This document shows positions 23,572 through 35,846 of a DNA stretch of 64,000 nucleotides, piece by piece (within the stretch, counting starts at the first letter, position 1; each line of letters opens with the position of its first letter). The notes beneath the pieces are model-generated. The model saw only the letters and a list, made by a program, of their open reading frames with translations, was not told the DNA's origin and ran no database searches. The DNA comes from Thioalkalivibrio sp. K90mix (GTDB lineage Bacteria; Pseudomonadota; Gammaproteobacteria; Ectothiorhodospirales; Ectothiorhodospiraceae). Where the stretch lies: assembly GCF_000025545.1 (NCBI RefSeq), contig NC_013889.1:2225501-2289500 (forward strand), written 5' to 3'. The position numbers were made by a program, and so were the translations under genes.

Positions 23572-24609
23572 TCAGACTCGTTCGGTGTGCAGTGCGGGCA
23601 ATGGCCGGGACAACCGGCGTCCCGCCATACGGGCCACCAAGTCTAGCAACCCCTGCCGCGCGTTGCCGTTTTCCTGACCCTTGATGACCCGATCCACACG
23701 CGCGGCCTCGCCCAGCAGCCCGCGCGCCGCCGGCAGGCTCAACCGCGACATCGCCTGGCGCAGGGCCTTCTGGCCGTCCCCGAAGCTGCCCTGAAAGGCC
23801 TCGCGATCCGGCGCCCCGGCCGCCTTGCGTTCCATCGCCTGCACCAGCAGGCGGCATTCGCGCGCCAGCGCCCAGAGAATCAGGGGCTCCGGCTGCCCCT
23901 CGTCGAGCAGCCCCTCCAGCATGCGCAGGGCATGGCGGGCATCGCCGCGCAGTGCGGTCGGGGCCAGTGCAAACAGCTCGAAGCGCGCGGCGTCGGTGGT
24001 GGCCTCTGCCAGCACGGCCTCGTCGATCTCGGTCACGCCCGCCAGCGCCAGCTTCTCGATCTCCTGGCGCGCGGCCAGCAGATTGCCCTCGATGCGCGAG
24101 ACCAGCAGCGCCAGCGCCGGCTCCGTGATCGTCAGGCCGTGGCGCTGCAGGCGGGCGCGGACCCACGGACCCAGCTGGGATGGAGGGATCGGGCGCGCGT
24201 GGAGCACCACCGCGCGGTTCTCCAGCGCCTTGAACCAGGCCGCCCGACGCATGTCCCGATCCGGCCGCGGGAGCTGCACCAGCAGCACGAGGTCATCCTG
24301 GGGCTCGGCCGCATAGGTCTTAAGATGATCACCGCCCACCTTGCCTGGCTTGCCGGTGGCCAGGCGCAGGTCCAGCACGCTGCGCTCGGCGAACAGGGAT
24401 CGATCGCGGATCGCGGACTCGAACGGCGCCCAGTCGGACTGCGCGGTCATGTCCAGCACGGTCCGTTCCAGATAGCCCTGGTCACGGGCCGCCGCGCGGA
24501 TCGCATCGGCTGCCTCGATCGCCTGCAGCGGCTCCTCGGCCAGTAGCAGGTAGATCGGCGCCACGCCGCGCGCCAGATCCTGTTCCAGGCGGGCGAGATC
24601 CTGGGCCAT
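23572..24609 (-). CDS. holA: DNA polymerase III delta subunit HolA
   Basis: Clamp-loader delta subunit, which opens the beta clamp. The 345 aa protein begins [22 protein letters not shown] and has the family stretches [51 protein letters not shown] and a C-terminal helical domain. ATG at 24609 is the ancestral start: removing the upstream mobile element makes it overlap the old lptE stop as TGATG. A weak GGAGA lies 12 bases upstream. An in-frame ATG at 24648 inside the element could now give a 13-residue extension. Confidence 0.94.
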
Positions 24610-24628
24610 CAGTCGGTAGGTTCTCCAG

Positions 24629-24902
24629 TTAAGGGAACACTGATCCATGTACACGCTCGCGCTCGAGTCGCTTTTGCGTGCGAACAAGGCGCGGTGACTG
24701 CCGTGCAGTCATTCTGCACAAGGGAGCCGCAACGCGGTTCCCACGCCCGTTTTTGATCACAACGGGCGGCCGAGCCCCTTCGGGGTTGGCACCCCAGGTT
24801 CCCCGATCCTGCGTTGCGCCGCTTGCGGGTAGAACCACTACCCGCTGCCCGACGCGCCTTGTCTCGGAAAACCTGGGGTACCAACGCGAGTGTGTACATG
24901 GA

Positions 24903-24917
<15 letters not shown>
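24629..24917. mobile_element. MITE-like non-autonomous element, copy 1 (lptE-holA junction)
   Basis: A 289 bp element, including TTAA-type ends, with ~30 bp terminal inverted repeats beginning GGGAACACTGATCCATGTAC at both ends. The outer tetramers are TTAA (left) and TTGA (right). The interior is rich in short hairpins, for example GACTGCCGTGCAGTC and GAGCCCCTTCGGGGTT. It aligns end to end with the complement of the copy at 35573-35846, except for a small interior insertion near 24750-24767. It carries no transposase. It separates lptE from holA and supplies the last three sense codons and the stop of lptE. The 4 bp target and GG-start ends resemble the IS5 subgroup, which is tentative. Confidence 0.9.
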
Positions 24918-28174
<3,257 letters not shown>

Positions 28175-35572: not shown

Positions 35573-35846
35573 TTAAGGAAACACTGATCAATGTACACGC
35601 TCGCGCTGGTACCCCAGGTTGTCCGAGACAAGGCGCGTCGTGCAGCGGGTAGTGGTTCTACCCGCAAGCGGCGCAATGCAGGATCGGGGAACCTAGGGTG
35701 CCAACCCCGAAGGGGCTCGGCCGCTTTTGCGTGGGAACGGCGTTGCGGCTCCCTTGTGCAGAATGACTGCACGGCAGTCACCGCGCATTAAACGCACGCA
35801 AAAGCGACGAAGCAGCGAGCGCGTACATTGGTCAGTGTTTCTTTAA
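35573..35846. mobile_element. MITE-like non-autonomous element, copy 2 (upstream of ssb)
   Basis: A 274 bp element with TTAA at both outer ends and terminal inverted repeats GGAAACACTGATCAATGTAC (left) and the near-identical complement on the right. Its complement aligns over its whole length with copy 1, so the two lie in opposite orientation. Relative to copy 1 it lacks a short interior segment and has a few substitutions. No transposase gene. It fills most of the 390 bp yajR-like/ssb gap; the remaining 68 bp (35847-35914) are GC-rich and hold the candidate ssb -10 box. Confidence 0.9.

Follow-up and report, generated by a model that had tools for sequence, protein, structure and literature searches.

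A MITE lying between lptE and holA in Thioalkalivibrio sp. K90mix may connect the translation of the two genes through an open frame of its own. We put the probability that such a relay runs from lptE over the MITE frame to holA, and that the frame beginning at the ATG of the terminal repeat is used throughout the element family, at roughly 60 %, judging from sequence comparisons. The anatomy of the insert, the empty site in relatives, the preserved TGATG, a bias in orientation and a match between length phase and flank were computed for the 64,000-nucleotide stretch analysed (the window) and related genomes. In the proposed mechanism, a ribosome ending the upstream gene would stop in the duplicated TAG or TAA or in the TGA or TAA of the repeat, restart at the repeat ATG and then translate the element (about 90 codons in the orientation termed W). 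The relay stop would be located at or beside the downstream start codon, allowing a hand-over to the downstream gene, and continuous translation through the element should prevent Rho-dependent polarity. From the patterns described below we infer translation of the frame, an efficient restart and Rho as the factor that is avoided.

The features of the locus are collected in Table 1. The terminal inverted repeats (24628-24661 and 24885-24918) comprise 34 nt with a complementarity of 94 %, and a 22-bp pattern derived from them is matched three times in the window compared to 0 times in 100 shuffles. Relative to lptE and holA the MITE is oriented as W, the orientation in which GTTGGTACCCCAGG comes first. 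The C-terminus of LptE now reads ...DDQPSREH: in the terminal repeat TGA TCC ATG, the TGA closes lptE and the ATG follows one codon on in the same frame. From there the relay frame traverses the element entirely and continues with ACT GGA GAA CCT ACC GAC TGA, the original end of lptE. With a net insert of 285 bp, corresponding to 95 codons and a multiple of 3, the relay frame re-enters the lptE frame and thus ends at the original TGATG. A scan for the nearest upstream frame at the K90mix holA returned the same geometry as found in close relatives (upORF 97, gap -1). Stop and start overlap or lie a few nt apart at both the lptE and the holA hand-over, and coupling may be possible at each of them (TGA-TCC-ATG and TGATG, respectively). 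About 290 nt now separate the lptE stop from the holA start, of which holA retains its native 23 nt upstream. A scan of positions 24560-25000 on both strands revealed neither an intrinsic terminator nor a sigma-70 promoter pattern at this copy. The new LptE tail is probably of little importance, since Pfam matches the protein only up to residue 160 of 185 and the tails differ among species.

Table 1. Features of the lptE-holA locus of K90mix, given in positions of the window.
Feature	Position	Strand	Basis
holA (DNA polymerase III delta subunit)	23572..24609	-	TIGR01128 match
TGATG: original lptE stop (24609-24611) overlapping the holA ATG (24607-24609), as in relatives	24607..24611	-	
Relay ORF, 96 codons, crossing the element and ending at the original lptE stop	24609..24899	-	ORF reading
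GGAG, native weak ribosome site 13 nt ahead of the holA ATG, present in ALJ21 too	24623..24626	-	
Target-site copy adjoining holA, TTAA	24629..24632	.	sequence, empty-site comparison
MITE proper, 281 bp	24633..24913	-	repeat self-comparison and family matches in K90mix
Rival start: ATG of the second terminal repeat, in frame with holA, +13 residues	24646..24648	-	
Proposed restart ATG in the terminal repeat, same frame, one codon past the lptE stop	24897..24899	-	
lptE (LPS assembly lipoprotein), present end SREH at the TGA within the terminal repeat	24903..25460	-	profile match
Present lptE stop, TGA of the terminal repeat	24903..24905	-	
AAGGGA, possible Shine-Dalgarno-like motif ahead of the restart ATG	24910..24915	-	
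Target-site copy adjoining lptE, TTGA (sense strand TCAA), probably a mutated copy of the YTAR duplication	24914..24917	.	

Comparison with relatives bore out the central claims of the preliminary description, namely that a mobile element split an lptE-holA pair with a -1 overlap and that the LptE C-terminus was replaced. The empty-site check it had proposed was run on ALJ21 (L031), the closest named relative, which is without the element. Its junction reads CAGCCG-ATGA-CTGGAGAACCTACCGACTGATGG, with a tail of MTGEPTD and TGATG, compared to the SREH ending at the repeat TGA in K90mix. TGATG is also present in ARh2, which shares the tail MTGEPTD, and in ALJ3, where the tail is ITGEATD. From the tail LTGEPTD predicted for the empty site, TGEPTD is thus found in ALJ21 and ARh2, but the relatives begin the tail with M or I instead of L. 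The element occurs at none of 13 named Thioalkalivibrio loci; 11 of them exhibit a 1-nt overlap (TGATG or TAATG) and two a 1-nt gap, and the native holA ATG is conserved in the 13 loci. A search of the genus matched 27 of 30 genomes and gave a readable lptE-holA junction in 25 of the 27 loci, with K90mix alone being occupied. The sets of 13 and 27 loci probably share assemblies and their counts are kept separate.

Other parts of that description needed adjustment. The insertion is real, but the 289 bp assigned to an element that leaves one TTAA include both flanks. The copy next to holA is TTAA and that next to lptE is TTGA, and the duplication is therefore imperfect. The overlap said to be shared with the neighbouring gene pairs is found for leuS-lptE and for what we take to be rlmH-maf (4 nt each), whereas distances of 4 to 63 nt separate the remaining neighbours; neighbour names besides leuS, lptE and holA are our assumption. 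The ribosome site of holA is weak, as had been remarked, but it is the same in ALJ21. The ATG of the second terminal repeat was verified to share the holA frame; a start there would lengthen the protein by 13 residues. The conclusion that holA translation was uncoupled from lptE is not supported, since the frame starting at the repeat ATG reaches an intact TGATG. It took no account of a net insert length divisible by 3 or of the TGA-TCC-ATG in the repeat; moreover, the arrangement with a relay frame recurs across the element family above chance. Overall, the earlier interpretation is partly supported.

The sequence gives good support to classing the insert as an IS5-type MITE: the insert contains no transposase gene, occurs in many copies and has empty orthologous sites. 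It is very probably mobilised by a resident 1.2-kb element of the IS5 family, as indicated by the shared ends GGGAAACRCTGAT and by the 4-bp NTAG target duplicated by the IS. Three copies of this IS are present in K90mix, with CTAG or GTAG as 4-bp duplication, and its transposase matches NF033581 (IS5 family) with E=2.2e-95. As in MITEs mobilised by IS5-family elements, the ends and the YTAR-type 4-bp target are common to both partners, and YTAR is reported as the IS5 target motif in PMC10359306. The window MITE differs from the IS in its interior, for which no convincing match to the resident IS was obtained, the likeness being confined to the outer 12-13 bp. A perfect CTAG, TTAA or CTAA on both sides was found for L004, L008, L011, L016, L027, L028 and L175 among 43 K90mix copies, and in the remaining copies the target is changed on one or both sides. 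The YTAR target seems to steer the elements to TAG and TAA stop codons at gene ends in this genome of 65 % GC. Many insertions would thereby come to lie at the borders of genes, leaving the upstream protein unharmed. The GTAG REP repeats that PMC3733652 reports for K90mix were rejected as an identity, the ends, size and target duplication here being of IS5 type.

With the lptE element as query, 55 match rows were obtained in K90mix (40 with long alignments), and 87 repeat sites were counted there compared to 0 for the reversed pattern. Among the matches listed, the family is present in at least 16 of 30 genomes of the genus. In most copies each terminal repeat contains stop codons directly followed by ATG, the commonest forms being YTAR-GGAAACAC-TGA-TCA/TTA/TCC-ATG. 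Length variation results mostly from 15-bp modules at three places and from 1-bp differences that set two main exit phases. A second copy is located in the window at 35575-35846 (L016), with TTAA target copies on both sides. We also observed that the repeat arms co-vary, with 198 identical changes in both arms compared to 78 for shuffled partners (135 independent copies), which hints at conversion between the arms, at subfamily structure or at selection for pairing.

For the family-wide comparison, genes were called by a home-made caller based on codon usage and called again from the flanks only with the element masked. Elements below 150 or above 420 bp were left out, and 23 of 199 loci were dropped due to the lack of a full repeat pair or of anything new. 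One insertion was kept per orthologous cluster, reducing 178 elements to 135 clusters and, with the holdout, 238 to 171. The holdout comprised 40 fetched stretches and 30 loci from a second query and contributed 60 new elements in 36 new clusters. Copies outside K90mix are the matches listed, sorted by their similarity to the window copy or to L027, and form a non-random sample for this reason; the K90mix sample is possibly incomplete. A co-directional junction was considered tight with the downstream start within 60 nt and the upstream stop at most 60 nt before the element.

At such tight co-directional junctions, the orientation W strongly prevailed over the opposite orientation S with 50 to 5 in all samples (171 independent insertions; P=2e-10). 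The ratio was 37 to 2 in the first sample and 39 to 2 with element-masked gene calls (K90mix 15:1, others 24:1). Looser co-directional sites gave 30 W and 16 S. The holdout taken alone is weak but points in the same direction (11:3, P=0.057). The frame from the repeat ATG has a median length of 89 codons in W (n=129) compared to 16 in S (n=130). Intactness of this frame was also compared between contexts, with 17 'edge' copies left out in each case: a loose definition gave 59/70 vs 34/48 and no significant difference (P=0.11), a strict one 50/70 vs 18/48 (P=3e-4).

The position of the relay stop relative to the downstream start was evaluated against a null in which element length classes were permuted among the same sites. 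Stops between -6 and +4 nt of the start were found for 16 of 32 open relays, compared to 7.88 after permutation (P=1e-4). The excess persisted with element-masked gene calls (15/33 vs 7.76, P=2e-4), with the holdout added (19/40 open vs 10.27, P=3e-4) and with non-open frames included (21/59 vs 12.16, P=6e-4). In 36 of 40 cases the stop lies within 30 nt of the start (23.57 permuted, P=5e-5), and stops at +1 to +4 number 12 of 40 compared to 5.95 (P=4e-4). Only two of 32 open relays enter the downstream gene by more than 30 nt, where a uniform phase would give 15. In the holdout itself only the 30-nt window reached significance (11/12 vs 7.81, P=0.012); the window of -6 to +4 gave 5/12 vs 3.48 (P=0.17) and, for open frames only, 4/7 vs 2.72 (P=0.24). 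S-sense or divergent sites showed no significant phase signal, these sites being few; the divergent ones (two open, six in total) did not suffice as a negative control for phase.

On the entry side, the upstream frame is associated with the length class as well (11/13 vs 9/24, Fisher 0.014, one class-0 site left out). At the 70 co-directional W sites the upstream gene stops at the element border in 20 cases, at the repeat TGA in 14 and at the repeat TAA position in five, most others stopping earlier. Exits were counted for 129 copies with a repeat ATG in all contexts. In class 1 (63 copies) the stop lies at -11 in the far repeat for 34 copies, at +4 in the target copy for 15 and earlier for four, whereas the frame exits into the flank in ten; in class 2 the flank is reached by 43 of 54 copies, and class 0 comprises 12 copies. 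A stop-bearing right target copy was not significantly better preserved in the self-terminating class, whose relay depends on it (P=0.36).

Three further junctions with occupied and empty sites illustrate the geometry. They were chosen for relays ending at an overlap and hence add nothing to the statistics; each comprises 16 loci from 26 to 28 matched genomes, and the gene names used for them (soeAB-like, ubiB, ftsY-ftsE), like uvrC-pgsA below, are our reading of the translations. The soeAB-like pair is occupied in four of 16 loci, and the empty sites show ATGA in 11 of 12 and TAATG in one. In all four occupied loci the relay stops at the ATGA of the empty sites; three of these copies measure 281 bp and one 296 bp, and both lengths share the exit phase. 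Upstream of ubiB two of 16 loci are occupied, both relays stopping at the TGATG that is present in 12 of 14 empty loci. For ftsY-ftsE (L267/L401) the element is found in one of 16 loci, with an ATGA at the ftsE start as the end of its relay. In the four closest relatives ftsY ends in a TAG located 5 nt upstream of the ATG. This TAG is missing from its position in the occupied strain, and the overlap is therefore not simply inherited.

A functional peptide is not claimed for the relay ORF, which is without match in Pfam and NCBIfam searches and without clear selection at the codon level. Synonymous and nonsynonymous changes gave no clear sign of peptide selection, and stops are depleted in other frames too. 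In the first block of co-directional W copies 256 nonsynonymous changes compare to 317.5 expected and 138 synonymous ones to 144.8; in the second block the values are 83 to 81.6 and 49 to 32.2, with other frames varying similarly. The openness of the single window copy was likewise rejected as evidence, since its frame stayed open in 512 of 2000 dinucleotide-preserving shuffles of the core.

Several other explanations of the locus and the family have to be weighed. The repeat ATG may be used while the hand-over itself is unimportant, if out-of-phase copies or S copies that block transcription are simply removed. Such purging would yield much of the phase signal, and the scarcity of open relays running more than 30 nt into the downstream gene (two of 32 compared to 15 expected) fits it. 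The enrichment of stops at +1 to +4, a range that comprises the standard coupling overlaps, argues against it, as does the lack of an intrinsic terminator or sigma-70 promoter pattern on either strand at the window copy. We regard this explanation as unlikely. A real uncoupling, with holA translated alone from its weak native GGAG and an altered output of delta subunit being tolerated, is in accordance with the distance of about 290 nt and with the 13 nt between GGAG and ATG. However, both the TGATG and the open frame leading to it are intact, and uncoupling predicts neither the family-wide orientation bias nor the phase match, so that it appears improbable.

If the repeats pair in the mRNA, the element might form a loop that places the lptE stop close to holA, so that coupling would act through space and the element would be left untranslated. 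A very stable fold with paired terminal repeats is predicted (RNA z=-8.9; DNA z=-10.2), and the co-variation of the arms described above would suit it. Since the terminal stem is much alike in either orientation, the 50:5 ratio and the phase match are both left unexplained, and we hold this possibility to be quite improbable. It is very doubtful that holA starts farther upstream, either at the ATG of the second repeat or at a TTG beyond it. The corresponding frame is open (23572-24687), but the native ATG is conserved in the 13 named loci mentioned above, and in-frame fusions of relay and downstream gene, tested for the ATG of the first repeat, are rare (2/47). The translation relay is the reading that we prefer. 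Whether the family as a whole is built to be harmless inside operons, serving as a portable translation bridge at dozens of junctions per genome, is a more tentative proposal to which we give slightly less than even odds. The parts of such a bridge would be repeats for stop and restart, a core open in one direction, 15-bp modules that keep the frame and two length classes with different exit phases.

Insertions within operons are expected to be polar. If true, the translation relay would explain the spread of an element without transposase through housekeeping operons such as lptE-holA, and those presumed to be ftsY-ftsE and uvrC-pgsA. Many unannotated relay peptides would be expected in genomes bearing the element. 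Dozens of insertions per genome with matching empty sites would further provide a natural experiment for termination-restart coupling and escape from Rho.

The closest published case seen is the BOX element of Streptococcus pneumoniae, a family of small modular MITE-like repeats that, according to the accessible part of PMC3049150, supply the stop codon of a CDS in 36 cases. Large BOX elements also have open frames, some of them transcribed with operons; the supplied stop codons and the open frames are shared with the element described here. In contrast, both strands of BOX have open frames, the elements are enriched between convergent genes, and the authors hold it more likely that the frames are untranslated; that part of the text does not describe a match in orientation or phase to downstream starts. 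Contiguous open frames are likewise known from the MITEs ERIC, Correia/NEMIS, RPE and the Yersinia repeats, where they are fused in frame into host proteins as stated in PMC2229807. The Thioalkalivibrio frame is instead kept apart from the gene upstream and in most cases from the one downstream as well, and could be a relay cistron of its own. Spacings of -4 and -1 are given as the most common coupling overlaps in PMC12548453, in accordance with the relay stops enriched at the same NTGA and TGATG spacings, and Rho is described there as causing polarity on untranslated RNA. A transposable element as a bridge is unmentioned in the accessible text of this review ('transpos' 0 times). In the open-access literature, covered mostly by title and abstract, neither a translation relay by a MITE nor this Thioalkalivibrio element was found.

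Two observations concern relatives and possible remnants of the element. A second MITE type (L142:448-760 and L030:1501-1752) matches the core at about positions 30-260 of the query but has other ends, GGGARACGCTGATTGARTCGCRCGTC in L142, and the L142 copy directly adjoins an IS5 copy. In K90mix the gene upstream of ubiB (L441) contains the short palindrome CTGGGGAGACACTCCCCAGAGGCC where relatives such as L438 show CTGGAGGCC; the palindrome resembles an in-frame trace left behind by an element since lost.
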